Assembly (NCBI GenBank): GCA_015178975.1
Contig: WHVD01000001.1
Span: forward strand, 1,736,001 to 1,800,000
From: Hysterangium stoloniferum
Taxonomy: Eukaryota; Basidiomycota; Agaricomycetes; Hysterangiales; Hysterangiaceae
Length of the DNA: 64,000 nucleotides
Direction: 5' to 3'
Part shown: in pieces, positions 30,048 to 57,352 of the stretch
Position numbering within the stretch: position 1 is the stretch's first letter
Layout: each line of letters begins with the position of its first letter
Made by a program: the position numbers and the translations under genes
Notes under the pieces: generated by a model
What the model saw: the letters and a program-made list of their open reading frames with translations, nothing else
What the model was told of the DNA's origin: nothing
Databases searched by the model: none

Positions 30048-31715
30048 TTAGTGACCTGATGACCGTTGTCGGGACCCGGAAGACTCATCCAGGGGCGTCA
30101 TAATGTGATGTTCACTCCAATCTGGTGAGTTGGCAGTTTGTCGATATTCCATGATATTCACTAGGAGCCGGCATCCCAATGTGCATGCTATGGTACTTTC
30201 CCATCTGAAATACATACTATTATTGATCTTGAACGAGTGAACCTAGTTGACACTCACAATATCGCGACTGGGGCCAATTCCCGCCCTTCCAGTGCATAGA
30301 CGCTACACGCAATGAACAGTGTCACAAAGATACTGGAAATATGAACTCGTTTATGTCTGCAGAATGGGACTTGGAGAAACGTGAGTGACGCACCCAACGA
30401 AGTAAATCACGCTTTAAAACCTTCGTTTGAGCCTTATTTCGAGGGAAATCGACCGGAAGTCGTGCTTACCTGTCTTTTAACATTTGTGTTAACAATGGAG
30501 AAATGTATCCATTTCGGTGGTGTTGAATGGCCTTTAGTATCATAAGGAAGCATAGGATTGTTTCGAGGATCAGCGACGGCAGTGCCCCAAACCAAAACCC
30601 CCGTGGTAATGTATCGACACCGCAGCCGGTGAGTCCGAAATGCATTCCAAACACTATCGTGGATATCAGTAATAAGTTGGACGTGTTCTTTCCTGGACAT
30701 AAGGACTCACCGATAGGTTTGTGAAAGCTCAGCAGAAGTATACTTGTAAGTACACCTAGCCCTATTATGATCGATAGTAGTATGAGTAACTTGACATTGC
30801 GTTCGTAAACGGCGTAGACCTTTTGTACTTGTAACTTAGTAAAGGGTATCGATGCTGTATTTACGAGAAAAACGCACCCGAAATAGCAAAATGACTTGAT
30901 GCAAAGCGTAAGGGAGTGGCAATTTCACTGCTTCGTTTGAACGTACCTTGCGCAGCTAGGATGGCAGCGATTGTGCTTTCGTGGCGCAAAGTCAATCAGA
31001 AGGTATTTTGAACATAAATCCATACTAACGAGAATAACTCCCACCAAAAAAAGACGTTACAACTAGTGTTCGACACGGCCGCGTCATTACGATATAAATA
31101 AAGGTTTTTTAAGATCCTTACAACTGAAAAGCGCATGAGATATTACAATGTCGTGTGAAGCAGTCGGAACATGACACACTTTGTCTGTGAGACTTCCACT
31201 AAATATGACTATGAAGTGCCGTCTGAGACGGTGAGACCTACAATGACAACAAAGTGCTCACTAGAAATATCGAAAATGGCGGAAAAGAGTCCTAAATAAC
31301 GGGTCTCAAGCGTTGTTTTAAAGACGCGCAGTAACTCAAAAAGCATATCACTCACGAAAAGATAAAGGTATTTCCCTAAGGTGCACCGTCGCTGCCATGT
31401 AGATTTCTGTAATGGGTAATAAATGGGAAACGACACCACCTCGGAATGACTTTGGAACACGCACTTCATGTGTAATGGTCAATCCTGAAGGCACAGAAAA
31501 TAATTCACATTAGTTCCCGTGTAGTTGAGATCATTAGAACCTATACCATAGTCATATATCATCACTGTTGCTGCTGCGACCCACGAATACTTGACGGCAT
31601 TATCTGAAATATATAGCAATGATGAATAGTCAACTCGACGACAAAAATTGTCTTCGGGGGGAATGCGGAACTCACAAGCCCACATCTGGGTCCGAACACT
31701 GCTGCTAACAGACAT
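30048..31715 (-). CDS. DUF6533-type membrane protein, 14 exons, 287 aa
   Basis: Exons, 5' to 3' on the minus strand: 31676-31715, 31547-31603, 31465-31484, 31356-31406, 31262-31304, 31178-31208, 31030-31062, 30947-30975, 30878-30894, 30711-30819, 30470-30653, 30394-30411, 30258-30332, 30048-30204. They total 864 nt in one open frame ending TAA. Every intron is GT..AG. The N-terminal SWVAAATVMIYDYG / LTITHE / WQRRCTLGKYLYLF core matches the fungal DUF6533 domain. Hydrophobic helices follow (TRYLGLFSAIF; WWELFSTIAAILAAQ then VILLFR and VYAVY; a Leu/Ile-rich helix; FWFGALPSLILETILCFLM; VIYFVGIFVTLF), then a conserved CTLGCRLLVNIMEYR and a polar tail. It is probably a multi-pass membrane protein of unknown function. 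Exons of 17, 18 and 20 nt are notable. Three paralogs confirm the structure. Confidence 0.85.
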
Positions 31716-33829
31716 CTTACCAATGCTGAGAATTGCTCGCTGGTTTTCGGCACTCTGGGATGCCTTAAGGTGCGATCACCCAAGTGCCACTGTGTGTAAC
31801 TTGAGGAAGAGAAGACTAATGTTATTCACGGTGTTCACGCAGAGGGAACACTGATACATCACTTATAAATAAGAGAGAATATGGTGTCATGTATCGCGAT
31901 ATGGAGCTTGTTCATGTAGATCGGCACGGGACTTGATATATAACCGCAGGAGATAATCTCGATTATCGACGTGGCATCTAAGTTAATCTCAAAACTGTTC
32001 CTTGAAAATGTCCAGATATTATTTTTGCTTGAGGTAGACATAGAGGCAGGAGATAATATATAGGCACAAATCGAACTCGTTGGTGGTATCTGCATTGGGG
32101 ATCACATAAGACATGCGGTGGCTATTCAATCATTGGTAGTGTATAAACCTCATTATTTATATGTCAAGCTTGTCCAAATGTCGATGTTTTATCGACTTCC
32201 ACAGAGTTTTGGCAAGAATGGCTTAAAATCAACAACAATATTCTGTGTGTAATACAGTAAATGTGGAGGAAAGGCCTCATATGCCGTTCTTTTATCTGGG
32301 TGTGATTAAGCAAAAATAATTTGTGGCATGTCCCGTGATTTCAACTCTTCTGTGTTTCCCAAGATCGCTATGACCCGCCGGTCTTTGTTCGGGAGTATTA
32401 TATAATAAAAATGATTGTTCGTAATATTATTGAATGTTGCTCAGATCGCTGTAGATTGTCACGTAGATTTCTGCCAGCCTTTATCCGAGATCACGTCGAG
32501 TTTTGTATGCGTTATTTGCTCACATGAACAGTCATGTTTACGCAAAGACTTTACTGATGTGTTTAATGATCATGTCTGATTTTCATACTTGATCAATTCC
32601 CCAGATATCTTCACGGTGTTTTGGAAGTAGAGAGGGAGAGTGCGATTCAAAGGATTTAGGACCCGGAGGCACGGAATTGACTAACCGGACTATCATATTA
32701 CATGTAAGAAAAACACAATAATATCTTATAAAAGGGCCAGATATCAAAATGCCGATTTTAAAGCTTTTGATCCTGACCGAAATGGATTTAACCTTGATCG
32801 GGAGACCGGGAAATGTGTGTATCTACGCTAATTAGCTTGTATAATTAGGCTAATCCGACATCTATTTGCCAGTCAATAGGGGTTCCGGAAGGTACCGTGT
32901 CTGCCGAGCCCAATTGGACTACGGCACCCCTAGATAGCTCTGGACAATGCACCTACTTTTCTGAGGATGTATCCGCATTCTTAGAAGCTGCCTAGTTGGC
33001 ATCCATCTTATTTCCAATGCTTCTTCACAACCATGTAACGATGACACCCAGTGGCAACTTATTGACCTGGGACTTTTTTTGAATATCTTCCGAAATTCTA
33101 CCGGCGTTTAGAATAGACCGTCACGACATTCGATGACCAGCTACTTAGTATTCATTGAATTTAGAGCGCCAAGAAGTCAAATGACTGCACGATATAGGTC
33201 AAAAACTTGGCCCTCGTTCGCTACGTGCTGTCCTTCATGCGATCTGATCACTGGATATTTTTTATTTGAGATGCTGTGGGTATACTAACTCGCTGTGTTT
33301 CTTCCCTTCTTCTTTTTCTTCTTCTTTTCTTCCTCAGAAGATCCACGTACAAGATGTGAAATTTGGTTGTCTTACCACAAATTACCTTACATAGAAACAA
33401 AACTTAAAGAACTTTAAAAAAAAAAAACACGTCACGTGCCGTGATAGATAGGGCATCCTAAAATGGAGGGATTTCCTTCAGGAGCCCACCGAGCCATCGG
33501 ATAACATAACGACGTGGCTTTCTAAATATAGCCCAGGCTCAAAATATGCAAGCACTTTGAATACTATTCTCAGTCGGATTATCATGGTTCAAAGTAGACA
33601 CACGCGCCCGACGTGTGAATTTTCATGCGTATGTTGCATGCACAAGCACATCTCTCCGTTCTAGTTCGTGTCGAATTCATCTTCATTCGGTTGAGTGTAA
33701 ACCGTGAGGGCAGACTATGCAAGCTGGGATTGTACCTCGATTCGTCATTTTAAAAGAAAAAAAGCCACGCCTTGACAAGGTAGACTGGTATTCAACGTAG
33801 ACAATTTAGCATCAGGCATTTGCAATAGA
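31716..33829. other. Intergenic, no supported gene
   Basis: The interval between two cluster genes. Only short chance ORFs; a CTT-rich run at about 33305-33335 and an A-run at about 33416-33427. No paralogous exon was found. Confidence 0.45.
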
Positions 33830-35601
33830 TTACATGATTACATTCTTATTAGGTGGGACCTCAGGACTGGACGCAATGGTGATCTCCACCCCACTTTGAT
33901 AATCTGGTAGCCTGTCGATACGGCAAAAAGATATGGGTGTAATCATTGTGTCGTGATAGGACTTTGATATTTCTGCCCTTTTCATAATATTCACTAGGAG
34001 CCGACATCCAATCGTGCATGATATTGCACTTTCCCATCTAAATTGCACGCTTTGCTATCGGTCTTGAGTTAGTGAAAACTAGTGTACACACCCTATGGCG
34101 ATCTGAGACCATTCTTCCCCTTTGATGAAATAGAAGGTACAGTCAATAAATAGCGCCGTAAAGATACTGGAAACATGGGGCTGGATAAGTATGCAGAATG
34201 GGTGAATGGCTTCAGAGAAGTATGATAGACACACCAAACGAAATAAACTATACTATAAAACTTCTGTTTAAGCACACGCTTCCGAGGGGAGCATTTCAAT
34301 GCTGTGCTTACCTATCATGTACCATTTCGGACAACAATGGAGATTTATATCCACTTCGGCAATTTTGAATTGCCTTCAGTATCATGAGGGAACATAACAT
34401 TGTTTCGTGGATCAGCGACGGCAGCATCCCAAACCAAAACGTCCGTGGTATTGCACTACTATTACAGCCGGTGAGTCCAGAAGGGGATTCAAGCCCGGCT
34501 GTACATATCAGCCACTAGCTGGAGGGATCTGCTGCATGATATGCAAGTACTCACCAGCAGGTATGTCAAGGCCCATGACAAGCAAAGATGCAAGTGCCCC
34601 CAGTACCAGCGAGGTGGCTAGTACCATAAGCAACTTGTTATTCCGTTCGTAAACGGCATAAACCTTTTGGATGGTGGCTGAAAAAAGATATAAATACTAC
34701 AGTAGAGACTTCAACTCACCCGACAAAGTAATATGACTTGGTGTGTCGAATGGGGAAGCGCCTTAGTGTGTTGTCTCGTGGTGAAAACCATGCAAGGCAA
34801 AACGGACCTTCAACGGATAGAACAGCAGCAAGGACACTTTGATGTAAAGGGACTCAGGGTGTGTATCCGGGCTTATAAATTCACACGAACGAGAGTATCC
34901 CCCACCAAAGGAAGTCATGGCAGCTGTCATTCGACATGATCACCTCATGAAGGCGGTGTGGACAAGAATTTATGATCCTTACAGCTACGGAATGCATGAG
35001 ATATCGAATAATGCATGCATAATGCTAGTCGGAACTTGGCACACCTTGTTTGTAAAATTCGCACTAAACATCACTGTGAATATTGTTGAGGTGGCAAGGA
35101 TTACAAGGCTATCAAGTTGGTCACCAGAAATGTCGAATATGGCTGTGAAGAGTCCTAGATAACGGGTCTAAAAAAACAATGAGGTGTCATTATTATTATA
35201 ATGCAATACAGCTACATAAATATACAGCTCACGAAAAAGTAGAGGCATTTTCCCAAGGACCACCGTCGTTGCCAGACAGATTTCTGTAAGATATTATACA
35301 TGATACATGACTTCTCGCCAGGGTGATCTATAACGCGCACTTCGTGCTTAATAGTCAATACTACAGGCCGCGTGGAGAAAAATATATCGGTTTCTAGCGC
35401 TGTTGCAATAATTTTGACTTTACCATAGTCGTATACCATTACCGTTGCTGCCGCCACCCAAGAAAGCTTGGTGACATTTTCTACAAAAAATTGGTCATTC
35501 GATTGACATTCAGCATGGTAATGTCGAATTGGCCGGAGGAAGATGTGCGACTCACGCAGTCTCAGCTTGATCAAGAAGCCTGAGGGGTTGGTATGATCCA
35601 T
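33830..35601 (-). CDS. DUF6533-type membrane protein, 14 exons, 307 aa
   Basis: Exons on the minus strand: 35556-35601, 35424-35480, 35341-35360, 35233-35283, 35125-35167, 35043-35073, 34891-34923, 34808-34836, 34720-34736, 34555-34663, 34312-34498, 34235-34252, 34092-34166, 33830-34037. The sum is 924 nt, open throughout, stop TAA. Intron positions and phases are identical to the 30048-31715 gene; only exons 1, 11 and 14 differ in length, by multiples of three except at the ends. Core motifs: TKLSWVAAATVMVYDY, WQRRWSLGKCLYFF, TRYLGLFTAIFDIS, FLWWGILSVLAAVLSVE, VILLCR, VYAVYERNNKLLMVLATS, FWFGMLPSLIHETML, CTIGCRLLVNIMKRAE. The tail is ~20 aa longer and ends VPPNKNVIM. A multi-pass membrane protein; function unknown. 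Confidence 0.85.
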
Positions 35602-37919
35602 GCTATCTGTGATGAGAGTGGTCAGATGATGCGGTGATAAATTTCAAGCACTAGTTGGACTTTGAAGGAGAAATAAAATTAAGGAGAATACTGGAAGGCA
35701 ACTGAAGTGCTAGCTGGAAGAGAAGACTAGATGAGAAACTATATCGTGTTGCTTGCTGCGACGTCGACAGAGCTTTACTTGGAGAGGACAATGATATACC
35801 GATACACAATGAGACTGGCGTCTAATGGTTCACTTGAAATCTTGAATCAGCCAACCTCTTGTCATGAGCGGTGATCATGACGCGCTAATCATTGCTGCGC
35901 CACCGTCACTTCTTGCTGGTCTAAGATGTTTTTCCCATTCTCCTTTAGGATTTGCACTATACGCAGTCATTACTTATACTTTGAAATTTCGATTCTTAGT
36001 GGACGATGCTTAGTAGAAATCGCATAGGATCTCAGTAAGAATTCCTTCAAGTAGTAGTATATGATATTACGACTGAATGTGACCCCTATCACATCAATGC
36101 AGGATCCTAATGGGCGTTACGGCGAATTTGACTCCCAAAAAGTTGCTCACTAAGGATCCATTGAGTTTTTGAGTTTTGGGTCCTTTCAAATGGGTACTTC
36201 GGACAACGGATGTTCCGTGGCCCTCCTACCTTTCCGTGTCTAGAGGGGAGATGTTATCTCGCATTTTGTATGCGTAGTCTATGCTCACAACGATCAAATA
36301 ATATATTATAAGAAGCCATCCTAAGATTAATGGACACGTTGTTTTATTCAGGACTTCTTTAAACCATTAGATATATCCACACAGCAGCTCAGCTATAAAT
36401 AGACAGAGAGTTTCGGGTTCAAATCAGTCTGTGGGTGACCCTGAGGTAATGATTGAGCAACGAGGTATATAAGAGTAGTGAGCTCATCGCCACAATTTAG
36501 TCTGTGTGATCATTCAGGAACTGTACCGGACTTCATACTGTTCGCAAGGAGCATAGAACAATCAGCCAAGGGGCCACATTGTCATCTTTCGGATAAGATC
36601 CACCAGAAGCTGGAGAGTACCCAACTCACCGCAGGAAAGATAATAATTCGGCATATATAATTTTTACCATGAACACAGTAAATAGAATGAGTGTACCTTG
36701 ATTTATAAAATATAAAAAATCCCCATTGTGTTCCAACTATATGATCTAGAATGCAGCATATCGGAGATTTGAAAATACGCCACGTCATGACTAGTGATAA
36801 ACAGTAACCATCATGGAATCCGAAAACAGAGTAGTATCCCGGATAATTCAGTGTATCGAGATTTGCAACCCGCTACGTGCTGATTGACTGGCATGGCAGT
36901 AAGGGATCTGAAAGACTCATTCATCGACCGGGTAATAGTGGTGATTTGATTTGCACTTCAGTATATGATACTACGCAACCTGCTGAGCGGCCCGATGGCG
37001 CGGTTCGGACGGTAGCACTTGAGAATGGCAATGAGAGTTAATAAGTAATGTAGAATTTCCGAGTCACTACAACCGTAGGTTGCCTTCGTATACAGTCCCG
37101 ACAAATACTCATTCAAGTGAATACAGCTCGGTACTGGAAGGACCCGCATGCGCTGAATCCCTCAAGATTCCTAGGGCGAATGGCCTATGGATGCCTTTTT
37201 GCCCCTTTCATGAGGTATGTCGCATAGCTCTACCTTATCTCACAGAAATAGTTAGCTGAGATGGCCATTAAGTCGTAGAGTATGCATTGGTCGTGGGTGA
37301 GTATTGCACGAAAAGAGAGATTCCTAGCCTCTATTCAACCTGTATATTTCCAGAGATGGGGATATTGTCTTACTGAGCTTATCTTTGTTCAATATGTTAC
37401 ATAACTCTCCATCTATTTAGTCGTAGCGATCTCGACGCTATTCTAAAAATGTTTCAAGTCGAATTGAAAAATCCCGAACTATATGCTCGTCCAACTCCTG
37501 TCGAAAGGAAGAAGAGCTACTTGCAACCCGTCAGGGTTGACAATGCCTTTGCTCAGTCAAGGTGTCCTTCGACCACTCGCAGAATATAGAAGGTTTTGAG
37601 TAGTCTAGTAGCATAGCAGAACAGAGCTTCAATTCTTGTCTTTTATCGTAACTATCTTTCATCCATTTTATTTTGTACTATTCATTTCGGTCTCTCTACA
37701 TTCTTCTAGAGCGATCATTTTCCTGTATCTTGCTTCCAAGCCGCCACCATCCACCATATCTCTGGGACCGTTCACATGAGGCTCTCTACTTGATTTACTC
37801 ATGTTTTTAGTATTTTTGCGGGGCTGCCTATTCACTGTACATCGTATTTCTTCAAAAAGGCTATATGGTCCATGGTCGCGATAGTGTGAATGGCAATCCC
37901 TTGGCTCAATATCAAAAAT
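35602..37919. other. Intergenic, no supported gene
   Basis: No paralogous exons or named motifs on either strand. Short ORFs only. Confidence 0.4.
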
Positions 37920-38321: not shown

Positions 38322-39991
38322 TCAAACTATCGAGCGCTCCTGATTCAGAGGTGCAAATGAGCTTCTTTGGCTACTTTCCGTATTCTCTCCTTGACGAATC
38401 TGAAGCCTATCACGACTCCGAAAAGCCATTGAAGTCATCACAGGAATTGTAGTACGACCTGCATCCGACCACTCCGTGACATTGACTAGAAGCCGACAAC
38501 CCATTGTGCAAGATATCACGCTTTCCCACCTGAGGGATATTTAATTTTGTCATAAAGCTTATCAAAATGCAAATTTTTGATGCTCACAACACCGCAATGT
38601 CAGAGAAGTTTGGGTATTTGAAGATACAGATTTGGTTGATGAACAGAGTTGCAAAAGTACTAAAATATATTATGTTAGTACTAATAGTCCGGAGTCGTTA
38701 ATGAAGAAATCTATACCCAAGAAAATAAATCGCACTAACGGTCCTTTATCGTTAGTGGATGTCCTTCGCCGAAATCGACATTGTTACCTATCTTTTACCA
38801 TTCTCTGTAGTAGTGGTGGACGAATCCCCTTCCTAAACATGCTGACCGCCTGGAATAGCATGACAAGACACAAGAGTGTCTCACCCATCAACGAAGGCAG
38901 GAGCCCAAACGCGAATTTGGTAGATAATCGGTCGTATCTACACCCGGTCAGTTCTGAAGGTAAACCATATCCTGTCAAGAATGCTGTCTCCAAACACGCA
39001 AACTGGAAATCGAAAAGATGTACGTGCCTGTAGGCATGTTTAATCCCATAATGAGCAAAGTCGAGATCCCACCCACACATAATGCTACGCCAAGTATGAG
39101 AACCAAGAAGGTATTTCCTGTATAAACGGCATATATCTGTCAATTTTACTGTTAGAAACAGCAATCAAATTCTACATGCAATGAACTGACGCGACATAGG
39201 AGGATGACTTGATGCGCCAGTCACAGCTATCAGCATAGTAAGGGCTTAATTGATAAGATGGCATTACCTTCCACAGATAAAACTGAACAAGTTATGCTAA
39301 GAGATCGTCATAAAAATGCATTCCTGGATCATGGGAGCACTAACGAGACGACATGCCACCACGTGAAAGCACTGCAGCTGGAGTCGATTATATAACATCA
39401 GGAGGACAAAAATCATCGTGTTTCATACAACTAAAAAACAGAGAGAGTGGTTTAAATAAAATTAATGACAAGAACAAAAATGACCTCAACCTTATCTCCG
39501 AGACCAGCACTAAATGTTACTTGAATGAAATGTGAGCTGAATGTTCGTCAAAATAGTCGGCTCCACACCTGAAATGTCGATAATGACGATAAAAACTCCA
39601 AAGTAGCGTGCCTAAAATGATTTATTTATCGTTCGCGTTTCCGTAGTATAAACCAACAGTCTCACGAAAATATAGAGTGATTTCCCTAAAGACCACCTAC
39701 GATTCCAAACGCCAACCTTAATTATCACTGTAAGCACAGTAGACACGAAGTTCAAAAGCTTAGACCTCGTACTTGGTGCTCAAAAGACAATACTACCCAG
39801 ATAGTCAGCTTATCACTACTCCTGGCGCCTGCGACTTGTACTTGTACTCACCATAATCATAGATCAGCACAGTTGCTGCAGCCAGCCATGAATATTTGAT
39901 CGCATAATCTGAAGCAATTAGTGCATTCACTGTTATGATTAAGGTCACACTCACAGCCAGCAATTTTGTCAACGACTCTAAAATCATCCAT
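38322..39991 (-). CDS. DUF6533-type membrane protein, probable, one junction unresolved
   Basis: Most exons of the family can be read on the minus strand from an ATG at 39991 (MDDFRVVDKIAG): YAIKYSWLAAATVLIYDY, a 20-nt exon, VWNRRWSLGKSLYIF, ARYFGVFIVIIDIS, FTWWHVVS, ITCSVLSVE, the 17-nt VILLCR exon, IYAVYTGNTFLVLILG, a large FAFGLLPSLMGETLLC exon (within 38784-38990), AIYFLG, a FATLFINQ exon, and the last exon with CTMGCRLLVNVTEWSD ending TGA at 38322. Two oddities: the junction between exons 6 and 7 has no GT donor in the required phase, and exon 10 is followed by GC rather than GT. It is either a working gene with a GC-AG intron and a shifted junction, or a recent pseudogene. Confidence 0.6.
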
Positions 39992-42044: not shown

Positions 42045-42052
42045 ACGTTGAT

Positions 42053-43735
42053 TTACACCCCACTCTCATGAGCTGGTAGCCTGTCGTTACGGTAAAAAGA
42101 TATGGACGTAATCATCGTGTCATGATAGGATTTCGACACTTCTACCGATTCCATGATATTCACTAAAAGCCGGCATCCCATGGTGCATGGTATGGTACTT
42201 TGCCATCTGGAATAAAAAGAGAGAAGGAAGAAGAAAAGCTTTTATGACCTTGAGCAAATGAAACATACTGACACTTACAACATCGCCACCACAACCCAAT
42301 CGCGATTTTTGAGGAAATCCAAGGCAAAATTGACAAACAACACCAAAGAAATACTAGAAATAAGTGTGAAGATTAATGGGGACGGCCCCATGGAAGAGTG
42401 ATGGACATACCCAACGAAGTAAGTCGTACTAGACAGGTGGCTTTAAGCTCACAGTTTTAAGGGTAATATTTGAATGCCTATTTACCTGTCAAATATCATC
42501 ATTGACAACAATGGAGATGTGGATCCATCTCGATGATATTGAATGGCCTTCAGTATCATGAAAAAGCATAGAATTACTTCCTGGGTAAACGCCGCCAGCT
42601 TCGCACACCAAATATTCTGTGATATTAAAGTCCCAACGCAGTCGGCTGCCGTCCCAAATCAACAAATGGCTGGATATCTTTGCCTCTGGTGTCACATGAG
42701 TACTCACTTGGTTTCTTGAGAACTGCAAGGATCAACGACGCAACGACACCAAGTGCTAACGAGATTGTTAACACCATGAGCACTTTTTTATTCTGCCTAT
42801 AAACGGCGTAAACCTTTTGAGATGTTTAGTAAAGGACATCAACCGACGTTAACGTGATAAGCCCACCCGACATAGTTGAATGACTTGATGCAAAGTGTAA
42901 GAGTTATAATTTGTTGTTTCGTCTGAACTTACCTTGAACGGATACGACAGCGGCCGTTGTACTTTCGTTGTGCAAGAATATATAATTAGAAGGTATTTGA
43001 CTCAACCGACGCACACTAACGAGAATATCTCCCACCAAAGGAAGGCGCTACAGTTACTAGGTATTCAATATAACCCGCGTTATAACGATAGTGCAGGTAA
43101 GGGCAGCTTAAAAACCTTACGACTATAAAAAGCATAAGATGTAATAGAACGATAAATGAAGGAATTGGAATATGACATACTTTCTTTGTAAGATCCATAC
43201 TAAATATTACTACAAAAAGTCGCTCGAGATGGTGAGGACTGAAAAATATATTCAAGTGCTCACCATGAACGTCAAAAATAGCAGTGAATATTCCTAAATA
43301 ACGCGTCTAAACGATCTTCGTTATTATGAAGATATAATATAACTTTAAGCATGCAACTCACAAAAAGATATAGGCATTTTCCTAAAGACCATCGCCGTTG
43401 CCACATAGACTTCTGTGAGAGGTAATAAGTAATTAATGATAAACAACTTGTCTTACAGTTGCTTGGAAGCACGTACTTCATGTCCAATGGTCAATCCTGA
43501 AAGTACAAAACAGCTGCTCATTAGTTCCTAGCCTAGTTGCAATAATTCCGGCTTTACCGTAGTCATATACCATCACTGTTGCTGCCCCCACCCAGGAATA
43601 CTTAGTGACATTATCTAAACAATAATAATTGAACGATAGGTGTTCATCCGACAATATCGAAGTGGCTGAAGGGGACATTCAAGAGTTTGTAATTCACTCA
43701 CCAGCTCTGATCGCCGCCAAGCTGTTGCTATCCAT
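42053..43735 (-). CDS. DUF6533-type membrane protein, near-complete copy
   Basis: The exon series follows the family plan on the minus strand: 43702-43735 (MDSNSLAAIRA), 43558-43614 (DNVTKYSWVGAATVMVYDY), 43477-43496, 43362-43412 (KSMWQRRWSLGKCLYLF), 43264-43306 (TRYLGIFTAIFDVH), about 43181-43209, the FLWWEIFS exon near 43025-43060, 42933-42961, 42867-42883 (VIQLCR, 17 nt), 42708-42813 (VYAVYRQNKKVLMVLTIS), then later exons to a TAA at 42053. Two points are uncertain. The donor after exon 6 reads AT in the phase that would keep the frame, and exon 11 has a TGA close to its start unless a downstream acceptor is used. It may be a lightly damaged pseudogene. The C-terminal tail is short. Confidence 0.6.
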
Positions 43736-44879: not shown

Positions 44880-47177
44880 CGTAGGTCTTAAGTACTATCT
44901 CAATACGCATGATGGTGATCCCACACGCCCTCCCATCACGCATGGGAAGGTCCTTTCCCGTCTGCAATACATATTCTGGCCACGATCATGAATACACACA
45001 ACTGAGAGTCCACGCATCCTACGACGAACTGGGCCCATTCCTGCTCATGGATAAAGTAAACGATGAACTCAATAAACAACACGGTACAGATGCTGGAGAA
45101 ATGAAGTGAAAAAGTATGCAGGATGGGAAAAGCGACGCCGAAGAAACGTGACGGACATACCTAACGAAATAAATGAGACTGGACGCTGCTTTTCAAGCCA
45201 ACGCTTTCAAAGGGAGCCTTTGGACGCTGCGCATACCTGTAGTGTACCCAACCATGATAAAAATTGAGCCCCATATCCATCTCTGTAATTCTGAGTGGCC
45301 CTCAATAACATGAAGGAGGAAAGTATTGTTTCATAGATCAGCGGTGGCAACATTCCAAACACAAACTTTGATAATATTACACCGATATGGAAGCAACCGG
45401 TGAATCCGAAAGGCGGCGCAGATTCTATCACATATTAACAAGAGGTTGGAAACCGCCGAAACCGAATATGTGTCCTATAACCTCAATGCCAGATCCGACG
45501 TCATAAAATACTTTCATTGCTGTGACCCGTCCGAGTTCTTCCTGGTATTGCTATTACTTACGCAACTTGTGATTGCCGAAGGTAACTTGTGGCTCAGGTC
45601 TCCCGCCAAACGTGTGTGTGGGAATCACTGAAGACAGCTGTGGAGACGCGGAGAACAAGGAAAAAGGGGAAATCGACCCTTAGCAAACGACCCAAATTTA
45701 TCAGAGATCGTGGCCTGATTCGCGCATTCGCTAGAGGTTGCAGGGAATTATTGCCGGTATGACTAGAGAGAATCTGACATATTTTATTCATAAAATATAA
45801 GGATTCGCCAACAGATATACGAAAACTCATGACAAGCAGACTAGCAAGTACTTCGAGTGCAAATACGATTCCTAGTACTATGGGCAAATTGTTATTCCGT
45901 CGATAAACGGCGTAAGCCTTTTGAGTTAGTGACTTAAATGATATTGATCTTGTGTTAATGAGAGAAGCCTACCCGACATAGCAGAATGACTTGGTGCAAG
46001 GGGTGAGAACATCAATCTGATATTTTCCTCGAAACACTATGTCGCGTTGAGCGTACCTTAATCATATATGACGACAGCAGCCGCACTTTCGTGTGGAAGG
46101 CGAATTAGAAGGGGATTTTAAATCATCAAGCTACGAGGATAGCTGCCACTAAAGGGCGGCTTTACAGCTCGTGTTCGACGTAACCGCGTCATCATTACAG
46201 TGCAAGTATTGGATTAATTTAGGATTCTTATAACTATCAGATATATTGAGATATGGAACGTGGATAAAACATTTGGAACCTGACACATTTTATTTAGAAT
46301 ATTTACACTAACACTTACTACGACTTGGGACAGTAAGGGTTACAATGGAATCGGAGCGCTCACCAGAAACGTTGAAAATGGCTGTGAATAGTCCTAGATA
46401 ACGGGTCTAAGCGATGCGAATCATGATGCAATATAATTCTGAGAAGAAGAGAGGAAGTATATAACTCACGAACGCGTCGCCACATGGATCTCTGTGACGG
46501 GTTATATATGAGAAACGACCTATCTCGCAGTTACTTTGAAACACGTACTTCGTGTTAAATGTTCAATCCTGAAAGTACAGAATGTATATTCATTATCTTC
46601 CGGTGGCGATAATTCCGGCTTTACCGTAGTCATATACCATCACTGCTGCTGCTATCCCCAAAGCCAAAGTACTCTTGGAGATAACGGTGTTGTTGGATAA
46701 CACCGTCAAGCTTTACAGCTATATTTGGACAGACAAAACACATACAGGGTCGAAATAACAAAGGAACCGCTTGGCAACAAAAGAACTGAGATACAACCTT
46801 TTGTTCCCTATGTCTCAGACTTCCTTTTGTTCCGTATTTCCTTTGTTCGTATTTCCCCATTGTTATCTTTAGTATATATAATGTAACTCTAACAACCTTA
46901 CACCTCAGTCCGTTATACACATATACGAGACTGAGGTGAGTCATTCTTCTCCTACATTTTTATTAATATTCACATGTTGTAGTTTATTATTAGGTACTTA
47001 ATCCTAGTCCGTTATACACATATACGAGACTGAGTTTATTATTAGGTTACTTTTCTAACAGGTGTCACCATCTGAAAAATAATCATCAACTATTGATATA
47101 CCGTCCAATAATATGAAAATGTCTGGAGGGTCAATGTAGAACTCACACTCTGATCGCTATCGAGCTCCTGCTATCCA
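44880..47177 (-). pseudogene. DUF6533-type gene disrupted by a solo LTR
   Basis: Start ATG at 47177 (MDSRSSIAIR), with exon 2 split by an LTR at 46691-47060. Readable remains include ALGIAAAVMVYDY, CKAAL.WQL, the 17-nt VILLCR exon near 45980, VYAVYRRNNNLPIVLGIVFA (about 45820-45915) and FVFGMLPPLIYETILS (within 45207-45431). Exon 3 contains a stop, exon 4 is largely deleted, the AAAVV exon runs into TAA, and the last exon near 44900-44960 is degenerate. Order and spacing follow the family plan, so this is a dead copy. Confidence 0.75.
46691..47060 (+). mobile_element. 370-bp solo LTR inside an exon
   Basis: From TGTTGGATAACACC to TTTTCTAACA, flanked by exact GGTGT at 46686-46690 and 47061-47065. 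It sits within exon 2 of the minus-strand DUF6533-type pseudogene. It has a TATA-like GTATATATAA at about 46872, and a ~30-bp unit (TCCGTTATACACATATACGA core) present twice, at about 46911-46940 and 47008-47036. A copia-like size; a relative lies at 49337-49526. A fossil solo LTR. Confidence 0.85.
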
Positions 47178-49336: not shown

Positions 49337-49526
49337 TGTTAGAATGGTACATCATGAACAACAGAGTCCAAAGATCTATTTATAGGACAACAAAGGAGTT
49401 GTGTCACTCACCCTTTCCTTTGTTCTACCAAAGATATATAAGGAGTAGATGGTACTTGACTGTACTTTAGTCCATTATACACTAATACATGACTGATATA
49501 TACTATTAGGGTCCTGATTTTCAACA
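49337..49526 (+). mobile_element. Short copia-like LTR relic
   Basis: 190 bp from TGTTAGAATGG to TTTTCAACA with a TATA-like ATATATAAGG (about 49432). Its AGTCCATTATACAC..TACATGACTGA resembles the 30-b unit in the LTR at 46691-47060. Flanking 5-mers CAGGT / CAAGT match at four of five bases. A fossil, older than its relative. Confidence 0.6.
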
Positions 49527-49863
49527 CAAGTTGGCTCAGGTAATACAGTGGGGGACAAAACTGTTCCACTGATTTTTTATATGTCAAAGAATGTTGAATA
49601 ACTCAATGAGTACTTGACCAATTGACCTGAAATTTTTAATTTAGGTAGTCATATATGTTGGCTATATACCCTAATAATTCTATGACATAAGCATTATTTC
49701 TCAACAAACTATAAATCAAATACTATTGAAATCTCATTGGAACAGTTTTGTCCCTGGTATATAATCCAATACAAATCATATAGTCTAGTACTTGGTGTAA
49801 CCCCCCATTCTGTCTGGACCTTTTTTCATAACTCCTGAATACTCCTAGGCTCCACTTCATACT

Positions 49864-50708
49864 CTAGTAGCCTCTTCTTCTTGAAGTAATGCCAAAGGTG
49901 TTCAATTGGATTAAGATCAGCAGATTAAGGGGGCCATAACATGACATCAAAATCACTGCCATTAAGCCAATTGGTGGCCTTCTTGCTCTTGTGTTTGGGA
50001 TCATTGTCTTGCTGAAAGACAATATCCCCAGTCTTCTTCTTGTAATGCTTGAGAAATTCTTGAAGTTCATCCTCCAAAATGCTAACATAAAGTTCAGCAT
50101 CCATCCTTCCATCAATCTTGGTGGCATATCCTGGTCCTTCCCAGAACATACTTCCCCCCTCCAAACTTGACTGTGCCCTCAACCAGCCTATCACTGAGCC
50201 CCTCTCCTGCTTTTTTCCACACCCACTTCCTCCCATCTGACCCCAAATGATTGATTTTAGTCTCATCTGACCAAACAACCCTCTTCCAGTCCTCCAGAGA
50301 CCAGTTCTTGTGTGCCAATACAAAGTCCAGCCTCTCCCTTCTATGCCTTTTTGTGAGTTTAGGCCTTTTTCTCTTCACCACAGCCTTCATTCCAGCTTTC
50401 TTGAGTTCCCTACAAATTTTTCTTACAGAGATAGACTCCCCATTCATATCTTGTAGGACTTTAGAGGCCTGAGTGGCATGGTCAATCTTCTGGGAAGTGA
50501 TTTGTTGGATGATGTAATGGGTATCAGAGGGGGAAAGTTTGCATGGACGACCTCCAGCTGCTTTGGAGAGGGAGGAAGAATGTTTAGAGTGAATTCTGGA
50601 TATAGTAGAGACAGAAGGACCAGTGGTAGTAGCTACTTCATGTGCAGACTTGCCCTTGTCAAGTAGAGTAAGAACACAATCAAGTTGAGCAGGAGTGAGA
50701 GCTCTCAT
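49864..50708 (-). pseudogene. Tc1-type transposase, frame-shifted
   Basis: ATG at 50708 opens MRALTPAQLDCVLTLLDKGK, followed by a helix-turn-helix (STISRIHSKHSSSLSK, GGRPCKLSPSD) and VVWSDETKINHLGSDG with the first catalytic Asp. After FGGG the frame changes, probably at the run of seven C at about 50152. The second frame (within 49925-50323) continues with SMFWEGPGYATKIDGRMDAE and FQQDNDPKHKSKKA (second Asp). DLNPIEHLW, with the third acidic site, lies near 49900 after a stop. Length and order match Tc1 transposases of ~340 aa. Two or more lesions make it inactive. Confidence 0.88.
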
Positions 50709-50930
50709 GATGTAAACTGATGGGTTGTTGGAATGCTATCATTTGGAGAAGTGAACAGTTGTATATATACACAATTTGAACAGGTCACATGATTTTATTT
50801 GCATTTATTTGTGGATAATCAATAAGGTTATGTGCTAATCATGTGACAAGGAAAATGAGATTGCATTAGTATTTGATTTATAGTTTGATGACAAATAAGG
50901 CTTATGTCATAGAATTCTGAGGGTATATAG

Positions 50931-51671
50931 TGTTACAACCATGTTGCAACCTGACGGTCCCTGAGGTTATCACCTCCTATTGACAATTCAAGTCATCGTT
51001 CAAGTCCTCACATCGGAAGTCGTCAGTTTCCCGATGCTGACATATGCCTTCACGGTGATCAAACTCCATTTACACCCCCATCAAAATATACTTGTACTAT
51101 CTGGTTAAACTCTGATACGTCCCTTTATTATGATGATCTGTTCTACTCTATGTTTCACATATGTCTATATATACTTGTAACCCTCGGACTATTTCCTTTT
51201 CTCATAATTCCGCTCTTGGTTATCTCACAGCCTCTGAACTAATCGTAACCTTCCCATTCCTAGTCAAGCTTATTTGTCAATACTGTTTTCTGCTCTTCTC
51301 CTAGTTAGTATTTCCTAGATGCTGAATACTTGTATATGAACCTGTTGTAGTTGTAGTTACTAGGCAATCAGAATATCAACTCAGAATACCCTCTTATACC
51401 TCTAGAAGCCTCGTACTAAGCACTCCACTATCCACCTTCATGTGCACTCGCCCACTCTCGGTCTCTGACCCCTTGGCCCGACACTCGACTTATCCTTTGT
51501 TTCCAATTGGTAGTTTTGCCAAGAGGTATTTGTCAGGACTAGTCTTCGCCCGTCTGAAATTTAAGGACACCCAACAGATAATTGCGAGGGCGCAGCACAT
51601 AAGCTGAAGCCAAGTTCTTCCGATCGGTCCCGATCGGTCTACCGACATTAGTCAGTTTTCAGTTCTTAACA
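50931..51671 (+). mobile_element. Solo D-type gypsy LTR in a transposon inverted repeat
   Basis: 741 bp from TGTTACAACC to AGTTCTTAACA, flanked by exact TATAG (50926-50930 and 51672-51676). It contains the shared motif at 51599-51611, 60 bp from the LTR end. It interrupts the right inverted repeat of the Tc1-type element, so it is the younger insertion. Confidence 0.93.
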
Positions 51672-51793
51672 TATAGCCAACATATATGACTACCTAAATT
51701 AAAAATTTCACGTCAATTGGTCAAGTACTCATTGAGTTATTCAACATTCTTTGACATATAAAAAATCATTGGAACAGTTTCCCCGACTGCATA

Positions 51794-52203
51794 GCCATCA
51801 ATAGGTCAGAGGTCAATCACTGAAATAGTCAGACTGGCTTCTGCACATTCCTGTCTTCTCACATGTAGTTTTATGTTGGTGCTTCAAGAGGAACAAATTA
51901 GGGAAGAATGAAAGTATTATTCCAAGACAGGTATGATTGCTATGGAAGTGTTTAAGGACATTATTATTGATCTATAAGTATTCAGGCCCAATTGCAAAGA
52001 GAGACTGCCTCATGTATGTCTTTTAGATTGAATCATTTCAAAAAGTATATAAAAGTATAGAATTATAAGTAATTAATAAAATTTAAATAAGTTTCTGAAT
52101 TAGACAACATGTTTTGATAGATACTCAGAATTGCTGATACAGAGGAAGGTTGTAGGGTATGTGGGGGGCTTGCCTCCCCACGGGTTTAACCCTTGTATTC
52201 CTA
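51794..52203. other. Unassigned spacer
   Basis: No ORF or motif. AT-rich around 52020-52110. It ends where the left arm of the inverted duplication begins. Confidence 0.4.
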
Positions 52204-52617
52204 AGCGATGGAAATCCATCATGACCCAATATAACTCAGAAATATATCTCCCGACAAGATAAAGGCATTTTCCTAAACATCATCGGCGTTGCCACATAGA
52301 TTTCTGTGAAAGGTAATAGATGAAAAACGAATTATCTCGCAGATGCTTTGAAACACTTACTTCGTGTTCAATGGTCAAACCCGAAAGTACAACATATATT
52401 CATTATCTCCCGGCATAGTTGCGACAGTTCCGACTTTACCGTAGTCATGTACCATCACTTGTTGTGGCTACTAGCTAAGTAGGGTTGAAGATGATGGTGT
52501 CGCCATCTGAAAACACTAATGAACGATTGATATATCGTCTAACAATATAATATGCAAATGTCTGGGGTGAATGTGGAAATCACACACTCTGATCATTATC
52601 GAGGTACTGCTATCCAT
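52204..52617 (-). pseudogene. DUF6533-type 5' fragment
   Basis: ATG at 52617 (MDSSTSIMI), a damaged exon 2 (52440-52510, with a stop within TLLS), exon 3 (about 52355-52400) and exon 4 (about 52255-52310). It is cut off at ~52204, exactly at the outer edge of the inverted duplication. No downstream exons exist. It is the mirror copy of exons 1-4 of the gene at 55641-57352. Confidence 0.75.
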
Positions 52618-52952
52618 GCTATCTGTGTTGAGAATGGTTCACTGCCAGTAGTATAGGATTCCTGTAAAACGTGAGAGAACTGAAAAGCGCGGGCATCCGA
52701 GAAGCCACCGTGCGCAAGCGGAAGAGAACACCAAGGTGACATCTGTGTTAGATTTTCGGGTAAAGCGAGCAGCTGGAGTCGTATAGTGACTGGGGCACTA
52801 ATTCTCACATTAATTAGCGCCGTTGTTATTAGTATATAATCCCCGTAGTTACGCATGTGATACCCATGTGTTTATAACCAACAATATTACTCAGACAGTA
52901 TCGCGCTCGTCCTCTATAGGTCTGGTTATATTTTCGCTGAAAAGTTAACAAT

Positions 52953-52966
52953 CTGAGTATATAATA
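52953..52966 (-). promoter_or_regulatory. Conserved TATA block (fragment copy)
   Basis: TATTATATACTCAG on the minus strand, equivalent to the block at 55455-55468. It is displaced to about 340 bp from the fragment's ATG because an extra ~220 bp lies between them in this arm. Confidence 0.45.
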
Positions 52967-53029
52967 ACATCACCAACGATTTGAAAAAGAAATCTATGGC
53001 AGTTTAGATAGGCTATATGGATTGCAATT

Positions 53030-53392
53030 ACATGGAATCTGTGATGCTTGAAGTGCACATTACGTATAGGGGTACAGCCAATGCAGCATTGCCCCCCACA
53101 CTGGTCGGGAAAGCTATCACTCTTCGTCCGCAGCGATCAATGTGTTCGTCGGGGTTTGCCAGGAGAGATATGAACTGGCAGGAATATAGGCAATTTTCTA
53201 TGTACTCCCCGCTTCCGTATACGTAGGTATTGAGTTGGGAAAGATATCTTCAAGTGGGGTACAGTGTTGAGTGAGTTCCCAGGCCTGGTCCAAGAGTGGA
53301 CATGAAGGTGATCTGCTCGTAATATCGTCGAATTGCGCAGCCCTCTTTTGATCTAGATCCGAGAATACGCAGAGTTTTGCATATGCCATTTA
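53030..53392 (-). pseudogene. Conserved unrecognised ORF, left-arm copy
   Basis: 53198-53389 encodes MAYAKLCVFSDLDQKRAAQF, then SRSP.CPLLDQAWELTQHCTPLEDIFP; the rest of the homology (CLYSCQFISLLAN, AALAVPLY) continues to ~53030 in another frame. The right-arm copy (55066-55416) keeps one frame across all of it. Protein-level similarity between the arms suggests real past coding. No family recognised. Confidence 0.4.
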
Positions 53393-53489
53393 TACTAAAA
53401 CCGAACAAGAAGTGCTTAGTTACAGCCACATATGAATCTACATCTCTCAGACATCCATCCTCACACGGCTACCCAACCCCAATCTTCTA

Positions 53490-53700
53490 GAAGTAGACGG
53501 GCAGTGTGGGGTTAACCCAGTCCACATAGGACCCTAAGAACAACATTGGATGACCATCCATGAATCCAACTAAGAGTAAAAACACAATGATAATGCTGAC
53601 CGCCACGAACGAGGTCTCGTCAATCAGGAACTGCATTGGCATCTCAACTGGTTGATCACAGATCTTCTCATGCCATGATGAATGAATGGCTAAAAGGGTA
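53490..53700 (-). other. Conserved membrane-helix ORF, left-arm copy
   Basis: The minus strand encodes HEKICDQPVEMPMQFLIDE, TSFVAVSIIIVFLLLVGFM (one hydrophobic helix) and DGHPMLFLGSYVDWVNPT, ending LPVYF and a stop near 53495. The right arm (54637-54996) has the same helix and flanks, but its frame changes just after LSLGS. It looks like the C-terminal exon of a membrane protein. I cannot name the family, and no start codon or upstream exon could be fixed. Confidence 0.4.
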
Positions 53701-53865
53701 CAATAAAATGTAGGGTGGCTATGCTATGTGACCAATCTGCTTCTTAGCACGCTCTAATAAAAAGCTCAGGGACAAGATTCCCACTCCTGACTTTAGGCAC
53801 ATAGTTCTGCGGTGAGGGCAGTATAAACGCTGTTGATCACTATAGCAAAGAGTCCCGGACGAAAC

Positions 53866-54589
53866 AAGAACGAGGTTTGAAGCTGCGGTATTATGAACTA
53901 AATCAGATGGCCAAGCCATCCCAAGCATACTTGCACGTACTACACGGGCTAATGAATATCCAGTTCGTTAAGTGTCGTGGGTGCTGATTGAGATAAGTAT
54001 TAAAAGCGCTTGTATATTTTGGGAGTCTTGCGCTGCTAGTCAGACTTGGAGGATCAGCGTTGATGGATATATGACAGATGTCGGAGATGATCAAAGATAG
54101 ACAGTTCAGTTATTGTCCAGCGTACAACCTTCTTCACAAGCACATACATATCCTGCCTTCTTGACTTCTTCAAAGTACTTTGACCACCACAACTGATGGT
54201 CCCCCCAATATCGTCTTTATCGACTTGTCAGTTGCATATCGCCGGCGAGTCCGGGTACTTCGGGCATAACAACGAATTTGAAGTTCATAGGTTTAGCACG
54301 TCAAAACGCCAACAGAATGAGGTGCATTGCGTACATGGAAGTTCCGGCCTACCCTGGCTGCACGGAAGATGCGCTCCACAATTGCTGCAATGATCGTATA
54401 TTTTTTGACGAGACTCGAGTCCTGGGTATTGGAGATGCTGTCCAGAGTATATGTTTTCAGAGGTATACTAGAAGATCCACAACATACAAGAATTGAGGCT
54501 TCTAACTATACCCAGCGTCAAAACAAAGCTTTAAAAGATGCACGTGTACACATCCCAATATACATGTAGTTATTGGCCTCCCGAAAGAA
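53866..54589. other. Central spacer of the inverted duplication
   Basis: Single-copy sequence between the arms, about 720 bp, with short overlapping ORFs on both strands and no recognisable gene. Confidence 0.5.
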
Positions 54590-54636
54590 TTGGACAGTGA
54601 TCAAGAGCGTTTATACTATCCTCACCGCAGAACTAT

Positions 54637-54996
54637 GTGCCTAAAGTCAAGAGTGGGCATCTTGTCCCTGAGAATTTCCTAGAGCAGCTTAGGCACCCCA
54701 CATTTTATTGCCCCCTTCCATCCAGTCATTCATCATGGCATGAGCAGATCTGTGATCAACCAGTTGAGATGGTGATGCAGTTCATGTTTGACGAGACCTC
54801 GTTCGTGGCACTGAGCATTATCATTGTGTTTTCACTCTTAGTTGGGTTCGTGGATAGTCATTCAATGCTGTCCTTAGGGTCTGTGTGGATTGGGTTAGCC
54901 CCACACTGCCCATATATCTCTGGTAGAAAATTGTGGCTCGGTAGATGGATATTTGGAAAATTGATCAAGTATAGATTCGAATGTGGCTATAACTAA
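54637..54996 (+). pseudogene. Conserved membrane-helix ORF, right-arm copy
   Basis: A 119-aa frame including SSWHEQICDQPVEMVMQFMF, DETSFVALSIIIVFSLLVGF and VDSHSMLSLGS. Compared with the left arm it has lost one base after LSLGS, so its C-terminus differs. One transmembrane helix of about 17-19 residues is visible. The family is unknown. Confidence 0.4.
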
Positions 54997-55065
54997 TTAT
55001 GTCAGTAAAACCTTTGTGCAGTTGTAAGATTTTTTGTACCAACTTCCTGTTCGGTGTTAGTATAA

Positions 55066-55416
55066 GTGGCAGATGCAAAACACTGCGTATTCTCGGATCT
55101 AGATCAAAAGAGGGCTGCGCAATTCGACGATATTATGAGCAGATCACCTTTATGTCCACTCTGGGACCAGGCCTGGGAACTCACTCGACACTGTACCCCG
55201 CTTGAAGATATCTTTCCCGATTCAATATACATAGAACATGTATGCCTGTATTCCCTCCAGTTCATCTGTCTCCTGGCAAACACCCTTGATCGCCGCGGAC
55301 AGGGAGTGATAATTTGCCCGACCGACTTGTGGGGCGATGCTGAACTGGCTGTCCCTGTATACATAGCGTGCACTTCAAGCATCACGACTAAATGTAATTT
55401 CAATCCATATAGCTGA
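55066..55416 (+). CDS. Unrecognised conserved ORF, 116 aa
   Basis: MADAKHCVFSDLDQKRAAQF, then DDI.SRSP.CPL.DQAWELTRHCTPLEDIFP, CLYSLQFICLLAN, and LAVPVYIACTSSIT. Both arms of the inverted duplication keep these residues, with many silent-looking changes. This argues that it was, or is, coding. It could be a single exon of a longer gene: the sequence just upstream (55040-55065) offers an AG acceptor. The Cys-Val-Phe start recalls basidiomycete HNH-type proteins, but no His-Asn-His residues follow, so I do not assign a function. Confidence 0.35.
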   Translation: MADAKHCVFSDLDQKRAAQFDDIMSRSPLCPLWDQAWELTRHCTPLEDIFPDSIYIEHVCLYSLQFICLLANTLDRRGQGVIICPTDLWGDAELAVPVYIACTSSITTKCNFNPYS

Positions 55417-55454
55417 TCTACTTGTCATAGATTTTTTTCAATCGTTCGTGGTGT

Positions 55455-55468
55455 TATTATATACTCAG
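55455..55468 (+). promoter_or_regulatory. Conserved TATA block upstream of a DUF6533-type gene
   Basis: TATTATATACTCAG about 175 bp before the ATG at 55641. A second shared block, TCTCTCACTTTTTACCGGAT, lies at about 55557-55578, 60-85 bp before the ATG. Both recur before the copies at 47177 and 52617, and the second also before 43735. Confidence 0.5.
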
Positions 55469-55640
55469 ATGGTACCTCGATATCAATCAGACCGTTGTTT
55501 CAGCTTAGTCTTCTCTTCTATTTATGCAGGGTGGCATTTCAGATATCCATACTTTCAGTTCTCTCACTTTTTACCGGATCCCCCAGTCCTCTCAATTAAC
55601 CACCTACCACTGGCAGTGCACCATTCTCAACCCAGATAGC

Positions 55641-57352
55641 ATGGATGGCAGGAGCTCGATAGTGACTAGACTGTGTGAGTTCTACATTCACCCTCCAGAC
55701 ACATTCATATTGCTGGACTGTATAGTAATCGTTCATTATTATTTGTCAGATGGTGACGCCTTCATCGCTAACAGTACTTGGCTGGTAGTAGCAACAGTGA
55801 TGGTATATGACTTTGGTAAAGCCAGTACTCTCGCAACCACGCCAGGAGATAATAAATATATTTTGTGAACTCTCAGGTTTGACCATTGAACACGAAGTAC
55901 GTGTTTCAAAGCAACGCCGATGGTCTTTAGGAAAATGCCTTTATCTTTTCGTGAGATATATTTCTGAGTTATATTGGGTCATTGATGATGATGATTTCCA
56001 TCGCTTAGACCCGTTATCTAGGAATATTCAAGGTCATTTTCGACATTTCTGGTGAGCACTTCGATTCATTGTAACCTACCATCTCAAGCAGCAGTTGTAG
56101 TAAATTTTAGTGCAAATGTTACCAACACGGTGTGTCAGTTTCCGAGTTCTTCATCCGCGTTCAATATCTCACATATCCGACAGTTGTAAGGATCTTAAAT
56201 TAATCCCATACCTGCACCGTAATGATGACGCGGCTATGTCAAACACTAGCTGTACCGCCTTCTTTTGGTGGGAGCTATTCTCGTTAGTATGGTTGATGAT
56301 TGAAAATACCCTTCTAATTACCCTTCCACCCCGAAAGTGTAACTGCCGCCATCGTATCCGTCCAAGGTACGTTCAGCGGGACATGGGTGTTAGAAGAAAA
56401 CATCACATTGATGCTCTCACTGCACACTGCATCAAGTCATTCTACTATGTCGGGTGGGTTTCTCTCATTAATACAAGATCAATGTTATTTATTAAGCTAC
56501 CAACTTAAAAGGTTTACGCCGTTTATCGACGGAATAACAAGTTGGTTATAGTACTAGCAATTGTATTAGCACTAGCGGTACTTGCAAGTTTGCTCGTGAT
56601 GGGCCTTCATATGCCAGTCGGTGAGTTCTTATATTTCATGAAAACAATATTTACAACTTGTTTTTAATATGCGATAGGGGCAGCACCGCATTTGGGACTC
56701 ACCGGTTGCTTTTCTGTTAATGGAGTGCCACCAAAGTTTGCGTTTGGAGTGCTGCTGTTGCTGATCTACGAAACAATTCTTTGCTTCCTCATGTTATGGA
56801 AGGTTATTCAGAATTACCGAGATGGATATGGGTCTCTACTTTTATCGGGAATGGTACATGACAGGTAAGCATGGTATCCAACGTCTCCTCTTGAAAGCAT
56901 GGGCTTAAAAACCAGCTGTCTAGTCTCATTTACTTTGTTGGGTATGTCCGTCACATTTTTTCAGGGTCGCTTTTATCATTCTGTACACTTTTCACTCCAT
57001 TTCACAGTATCTTCACCGTTCTGTGTCTTGACTTCACCCTCTACAGCCTCCATAAACAGGAATGGGCCGTGTTCATCATAGCGTAAGTTAAACCAGTTTT
57101 GCTTATTCATGCTCAAGACTAGAATATGTATTTAGACGAGAATATACCATACCATGCGCGATGGGATGCCGACTCCTAGTGAATACCATGGAATGGGCTG
57201 AAGTGTCGAAATCCTCTCATGACACAATTGCTACGCCTATAACCTTTTACCCCATCGACAGGCTACCAGCTCATCAAAGTGAAGTAAAAATCACCACCGT
57301 AACTCCGGCCCTGGATGAGTCTTACAGATTCCACACTGCAATTGGGCAGTAG
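55641..57352 (+). CDS. DUF6533-type membrane protein, 13 exons, 310 aa
   Basis: Exons: 55641-55674, 55750-55815, 55877-55950, 56009-56051, 56101-56131, 56250-56282, 56338-56366, 56437-56453, 56512-56620, 56678-56864, 56924-56941, 57008-57082, 57136-57352; 933 nt, one open frame, stop TAG. Motifs: STWLVVATVMVYDF, LTIEHEVRVSKQRRWSLGKC, TRYLGIFKVIFDIS, CTAFFWWELFS, VTAAIVSVQ, VILLCR, VYAVYRRNNKLVIVLAIVLA, FAFGVLLLLIYETILC, LIYFVG, FTVLCLDFTL, CAMGCRLLVNTMEWAEVS. The third exon equals exons 3 plus 4 of the paralogs: one intron has been lost in frame, restoring a continuous EVR..RRWSLGKC core. A multi-pass membrane protein of unknown function. A conserved TATA block lies upstream. Confidence 0.85.

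Follow-up and report, generated by a model that had tools for sequence, protein, structure and literature searches.

A candidate two-nucleotide exon in a cluster of DUF6533 membrane-protein genes of the fungus Hysterangium stoloniferum

How can a reading frame pass from a 29-nucleotide (nt) exon to a 33-nt exon when the join between them is two bases short? The question is raised by the genes found at positions 30048-57352 of a 64,000-nt stretch of the genome of Hysterangium stoloniferum (contig WHVD01000001.1, positions 1,736,001 to 1,800,000 of the forward strand), the whole of which is referred to here as the window; DUF6533 genes of this fungus for multi-span membrane proteins are clustered locally in it. 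A preliminary description of the locus had assigned 13-14 exons to these genes; this is corrected here to 15 (14 in gene D), under a model in which a predicted fifteenth exon of 2 nt, constitutive in use, very probably lies between the 29-nt and 33-nt exons of each intact gene. The copies that bear on the question (protein lengths in amino acids, aa) and their candidate 2-nt exons are as follows.

30048-31715, minus strand: gene A, DUF6533 protein, 287 aa, 15 exons of 40/57/20/51/43/29/2/33/29/17/109/184/18/75/157 nt
33830-35601, minus strand: gene B, DUF6533 protein, 307 aa, 15 exons of 46/57/20/51/43/29/2/33/29/17/109/187/18/75/208 nt
38322-39991, minus strand: gene E, DUF6533 protein, 302 aa, 15 exons
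42053-43735, minus strand: gene C, DUF6533 protein, 276 aa, 15 exons
55641-57352, plus strand: gene D, about 310 aa, 14 exons
44880-47177, minus strand: copy F, decayed, its 2-nt site reading AG/TT/AT; ends as in the preliminary description
31122-31123, minus strand: candidate 2-nt exon of A (TT)
34983-34984, minus strand: candidate 2-nt exon of B (CT)
43121-43122, minus strand: candidate 2-nt exon of C (TC)
39429-39430, minus strand: candidate 2-nt exon of E (TT)
56184-56185, plus strand: candidate 2-nt exon of D (TT)

In an alignment of 32 copies, the 29-nt exon ends in phase 0 and the 33-nt exon contributes a single base followed by a Cys codon, which leaves the join two bases short. The motif AG/TT/GTAAG (slashes mark exon edges; CT in B, TC in C) lies in the middle of the gap of about 115 nt and divides it into two normal introns, 46-74 nt long and with canonical ends in most loci, so placed that the 2-nt exon would supply the first two bases of a codon, mostly Phe, before the conserved Cys. 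The donor of the 29-nt exon reads AAG/GTGTGT, with AAA/GTATGT in C, GAA/GCAAGT in the paralogous locus L068 and AAG/GTTGAG in E. Gene C needs a frameshift without the 2-nt exon and has an open frame with it, and the corrected model gives C, D and E an uninterrupted reading frame from ATG to stop. When chains of exons joined at GT/GC-AG introns were scored in a way that does not favour tiny exons, the chain of 43, 29, 2 and 33 nt (36 in C) ranked first, alone or in a tie, in most copies listed that fall outside a C113-type clade described below, gene E falling below a donor threshold in that listing; in 24 of 29 loci that carry the site, no chain lacking a 1-2-nt exon scored as high as the top chain with a 2-nt exon. 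A spliced aligner, which sets a profile against DNA, allows GT/GC-AG introns and penalises frameshifts and stops, was applied to 6 window copies and 40 fetched loci, then to 9 more, and then to 40 short DUF6533 loci. When relatives above 70% identity were kept out of the profiles, an optional 2-nt exon raised the aligner score in 25 of these 95 loci even with the additional intron penalised. In 22 the gain falls at residue 83, and among these are all five intact window genes; scores there rise by 1.0-17.4 units, with 5.2 for A, 2.1 for B, 5.2 for C, 4.8 for D and 11.3 for E. In each of the 29 gaps (95-137 nt) one AGNNGT, and no more than one, lies 40 nt or more from both ends, and the chance of AGNNGTR at such a place, from dinucleotide shuffles, is 0.9-9.3%, a figure that holds per gap only because the 29 were picked as carriers of the site. 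With the exceptions named in this text, then, the candidate exon has canonical splice sites on both sides, is needed by the frame and is conserved in homologs.

Several observations weigh against this reading. The phases, junctions, open frames and conservation are there in the DNA, and the 2-nt exon is predicted from them; the 29 gaps were selected for having the site; 70 of the 95 loci received no aligner call for a 2-nt exon; the gain for gene B is just the 2.1 units given above; and gene E depends on the weak donor GTTGAG (it also has one GC-AG intron). In the comparison of chains over the 29 loci, another chain scored higher in L077, L109 and L114, a tie was found in L078, and L035, which carries a stop, gave no open chain at all. 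The 29-nt exon shows weak codon-position bias (0.43, 0.41 and 0.51), and splice scores alone leave the start of this exon unfixed, the best chain with a 2-nt exon starting the upstream exon elsewhere in A, D, E, L033, L058, L077 and L078; the length of 29 nt is preferred because of the alignment and a shared residue pattern, not because of splice scores. An earlier model with exons of 9 and 94 nt (proteins of 300 and 320 aa), whose 9-nt donor is unconserved and whose following stretch varies by non-multiples of three, was dropped because the 32-copy alignment shows instead an exon of 29 nt whose phase-0 donor is conserved.

The frame would also be kept in A, B and D if the upstream exon ran on to a donor two bases further (AARGT/GTGTCA; GTGCCA in B), giving a 31-nt exon joined straight to the 33-nt exon across a single intron of about 115 nt, with no 2-nt exon at all. 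Such a join was probably the one meant in the preliminary description, to judge from its lengths of 287 and 307 aa, and locus L118, with a GTGTGT donor and a gap in which we see by eye no AG/NN/GT, is in keeping with it. The further donor is present in 13 of the 29 loci and impossible in the other 16, C and E included, all of which are fitted by 29 + 2 + 33, so that the join first drawn at residue 83 lacks its donor in more than half of the loci; the second donor has no G at +5, and a single long intron leaves both the split length of the gap and the AG/TT/GTAAG motif unexplained. We consider this alternative unlikely. Less likely still, and by a good deal, is an upstream exon that begins 10 nt further in, after an acceptor TTTAG, is 19 nt long, exits in phase 2 and is followed by one long intron: this chain is open in window copies A-D (wA, wB, wC, wD) and in L033, L048, L058 and L027, yet it is absent from the best chains listed for L037, L040, L047, L060, L068, L073, L074, L076 and the far paralogs, and it destroys the pattern [GN]-L-x-[DN]-x that is common to the far copies. 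The position of AG/TT/GT in the middle of a gap of double length might, finally, mark a mere relay for recursive splicing of one intron, from which nothing is retained in the messenger RNA. We give this the least credence of the three alternatives: in a zero-nt recursive site AG is followed directly by GT, whereas two bases separate them in all 29 gaps, the pair is conserved as TT in 19, and the loss of both would shift the frame and, in 14 of the 29 loci, bring a stop within the next exon.

The 2-nt site is conserved among near and distant paralogs. In a tree of the family, 28 rows fall outside the C113-type clade; the region is present in 25 of them and the site in 24 of the 25, the exception being the decayed copy F. 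With the aligner's own labels the tree takes seven changes, and of the seven rows labelled "other" outside that clade, L056, L069 and L075 keep AG/TT/GT (L056 and L075 in copies that are broken elsewhere); the other four are the decayed F, L061, which carries a deletion, and L038 and L071, which are unreadable at this place. A further 40 DUF6533 loci sampled in random order contained a canonical 2-nt site in six (L081, L092, L102, L104, L109 and L114), while many of the remaining 34 have no intron at the place, are too short, or belong to subfamilies with candidate 8- or 11-nt exons. The letters in the 29 carriers are TT in 19, TC in 4, CT in 2, AT in 2, AC in 1 and GT in 1, encoding F in 19, S in 4, L in 2, I in 2, T in 1 and V in 1. 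Carriers recur among DUF6533 paralogs that are 19-47% identical to B; the distant ones include L001 (19%), L002, L081, L092 and L104, and before the Cys the far carriers read GLSDNFC, GLSDTFC, GLGDKFC and GLSDKFC, while L084 has F-C within a single unbroken exon at the place of the 2-nt exon. Over 60 pairs below 45% protein identity, drawn from 13 divergent carriers, intron identity is 0.624 and 0.606, as compared to 0.615 and 0.622 for shuffles; because the introns of distant pairs are no more alike than shuffles, the site appears to persist although its flanking introns are saturated.

Loss of the site is concentrated in the C113-type clade, which consists of 22 rows (support 100/99), mostly from contig C113, and is without the site. 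In 14 of the 17 loci of this type that could be modelled, the upstream exon is 10-28 nt long, open, and leaves in phase 2, mostly at GTAATT (the exceptions to the phase-2 exit are L043, L062 and L063); because such an exon itself supplies the two bases, the reading frame is kept. AG/NN/GT is gone in 15 of the 17, the letters past the old acceptor being TTCTAG or similar, and the GT is retained in L042 and L044, which branch off deepest in the clade. Candidate lengthened forms are found in a large C24/C535/C542-type subfamily, where 12 of 21 loci could be set up with a need for two bases (L090 has a need of 0, and eight are without the donor labelled E6 or without E7). Among these 12, an 8-nt exon fits seven (L087, L097, L098, L101, L107, L091 and L117) and an 11-nt exon fits L105 and L111; no canonical solution was found for L082 and L086, and only CA/GTTGAT for L083 and L110. 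More generally, loci of the L080-L111 type, together with L091, L115 and L117, are two bases short (modulo 3) and show candidate 8- or 11-nt exons, some with GC or non-canonical donors. Three aligner calls of a 2-nt exon at residue 82 (L098, L101 and L107; CA/GTTGAT) were not accepted. Loci L038, L045, L046, L053, L054, L057, L061 and L072, considered as processed intron-less copies, were found to be deletions or partial copies, and among the genome matches listed no intron-less copy that might display the spliced join spans the whole gene in one open frame.

Two nt cannot hold 3' and 5' splice complexes at once, and for this reason the two flanking introns would have to be removed one after the other; since both are 46-74 nt long with mostly canonical ends, recognition across each intron (intron definition) is the natural model, and the same intron-wise argument has been made for the 1-nt exon of APC11 (PMC4674806). 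Skipping of the 2 nt is predicted to truncate the proteins of A, B, C and E to 81, 84, 78 and about 152 residues, respectively, and in 14 of the 29 loci the stop lies inside the 33-nt exon.

The preliminary description had proposed a paralogous family of multi-exon membrane proteins with 17-, 18- and 20-nt micro-exons and a match to DUF6533, and the genome-wide counts of these micro-exons and the Pfam matches agree with this. Scanned with the Pfam profile PF20151 (DUF6533; curated cut-off 24.1 bits), the corrected models of A, B, C and E score 41.3, 52.0, 48.8 and 39.9 bits (E-values 4.6e-10 to 7.8e-14); among Pfam hits of the four proteins at E <= 10 this was the sole match above its curated cut-off, and no seven-transmembrane or G-protein-coupled receptor (GPCR) profile was matched at that level. 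A DUF6533 profile search of the 111-megabase, 554-contig genome returned at least 150 scored matches of 402 candidates; the gene-model query of the genome search was the earlier model with 9-nt and 94-nt exons. The hydrophobic segments overlap in a Kyte-Doolittle plot and give no clear number of helices; the proteins are most likely seven-span orphan receptor-like or transport proteins. DUF6533 is described as basidiomycete-specific in the paper on SNB1 (Snowball; PMC10949477), another protein with this domain; SNB1 is an integral membrane protein, is predicted there to have seven helices and, unlike the cluster genes, is a conserved single gene reported to be needed for fruiting-body patterning. 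The DUF6534 proteins, which belong to a different Pfam family, form expanded seven-helix families of Agaricomycotina and have been put forward as a new fungal GPCR class (PMC12842992).

Around the 2-nt exon, genes A and B have all intron positions and phases in common, as first reported (introns 51-72 nt in A and 51-75 nt in B), and pairwise protein identity among A-E is 0.42-0.61 over aligned residues. That at least four further copies keep the same plan stands for C, E and, with 14 exons, D; F is decayed, with an insertion in its first intron at 46600-47100 in which a repeated motif can be seen by eye, and G is a 5' fragment in which only the 20-nt and 51-nt exons are alignable. Gene D has no intron after its 20-nt exon and contains in its place a 15-nt in-frame remnant, GTACGTGTTTCAAAG (within 55877-55950), which looks like a piece of intron turned coding; the same intron is also uncalled in the close relatives L047 and L058 of D. 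The remaining features of the cluster are as follows.

about 52240-52655, minus strand: copy G, 5' fragment only; ends by eye
55750-55815, plus strand: second exon of D, read by eye
30878-30894, minus strand: 17-nt exon of A
34720-34736, minus strand: 17-nt exon of B
39191-39207, minus strand: 17-nt exon of E
42867-42883, minus strand: 17-nt exon of C
56437-56453, plus strand: 17-nt exon of D
about 45973-45989, minus strand: 17-nt exon of F, by eye
30394-30411, minus strand: 18-nt exon of A
34235-34252, minus strand: 18-nt exon of B
38717-38734, minus strand: 18-nt exon of E
42411-42428, minus strand: 18-nt exon of C
56924-56941, plus strand: 18-nt exon of D
31465-31484, minus strand: 20-nt exon of A
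35341-35360, minus strand: 20-nt exon of B
39773-39792, minus strand: 20-nt exon of E
43477-43496, minus strand: 20-nt exon of C

The 17-nt exons of A, B, C and D are present with GT..AG junctions where they had first been placed, and those said to be recognisable in E and F could be located as listed. The conservation claimed for the 18-nt and 20-nt exons likewise extends over the 53 subfamily loci of the genome: both flanking introns were found in 34 of 38 loci covering the 20-nt exon, 42 of 48 covering the 17-nt exon and 44 of 48 covering the 18-nt exon, and no other length of any of the three was seen in these covering loci where both introns were called. Recurrent introns fall at gene B residues 16.1, 35.1, 42.0, 59.0, 73.1, 94.2, 104.1, 110.0, 147.1 (146.1 in some), 208.2, 214.2 and 239.2. 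Genome-wide, the acceptor ahead of the 17-nt exon is AAG, not CAG or TAG, in 39 of 43.

Elsewhere in the window, an imperfect palindrome at 53041-55385, centred near 54.2 kilobases and made of four arm pairs that are 79-94% complementary, is flanked by fragment G and gene D, in divergent orientation, and is an inverted duplication of the locus. A Tc1/mariner-like element occupies 49558-51780, with 110-nt terminal inverted repeats that are 98% complementary and transposase-like open reading frames broken between frames, and open reading frames at 19808-24989 on the minus strand resemble, by eye, a Ty3/gypsy-type retrotransposon (gag- and pol-like). An Rfam scan of the window gave no match.

The nearest known systems are the 1-nt exons of plants, APC11 of Arabidopsis (PMC4674806) and VPS55 (PMC8831610), which are likewise constitutive, too small for exon definition, unannotated, and bordered by conserved splice sites on both sides; for VPS55 a subfamily-wise loss is known, as here. 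They differ in being 1 nt long, in plants, in single- or few-copy genes and proven by RNA, whereas the present exon would be 2 nt long, in a fungus and in an expanded family, and is predicted from genomic sequence. The preliminary description had called the packing of these genes "extreme", a word that such dimensions alone do not warrant in basidiomycetes: the P450 genes of Phanerochaete chrysosporium (PMC1184071) are also a multigene family with introns of 45-55 base pairs (bp) and many tiny exons, and differ in that the shortest exon reported is 6 bp. Other published tiny exons are of 3 bp in Drosophila, 1 bp in mitochondrial genes of Placozoa and 4 bp in MPC1. Text searches of the literature, with subscription journals outside their scope and sources available in part, found no 2-nt exon, either in any organism or, more narrowly, among micro-exons of fungi, mushrooms or Agaricomycetes.

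A wider reading, for which we find the case evenly balanced, is that much of DUF6533 inherited the 2-nt exon from a common ancestor, its codon and phase being shared by subfamilies of about 19-30% identity to B. On this reading it was kept through growth to well over a hundred genes, some copies losing it through donor shifts that compensate the frame and other subfamilies extending it to about 8 nt; no conserved exon of 2 nt, and no fungal exon below 6 nt, would have been described before. It would serve as a fidelity gate, full-length protein coming from sequential splicing and a stop after the second helix from skipping. If the exon is real, any DUF6533 gene model without the 2 nt is wrong or broken at that codon, and ordinary gene finders would miss it; gene C resembles a pseudogene without it. 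The family would then bring together, within a single genome, copies that carry the exon, copies that lost it and copies with lengthened forms, a natural system that bears on how the spliceosome handles an exon too short for both splice-site complexes.

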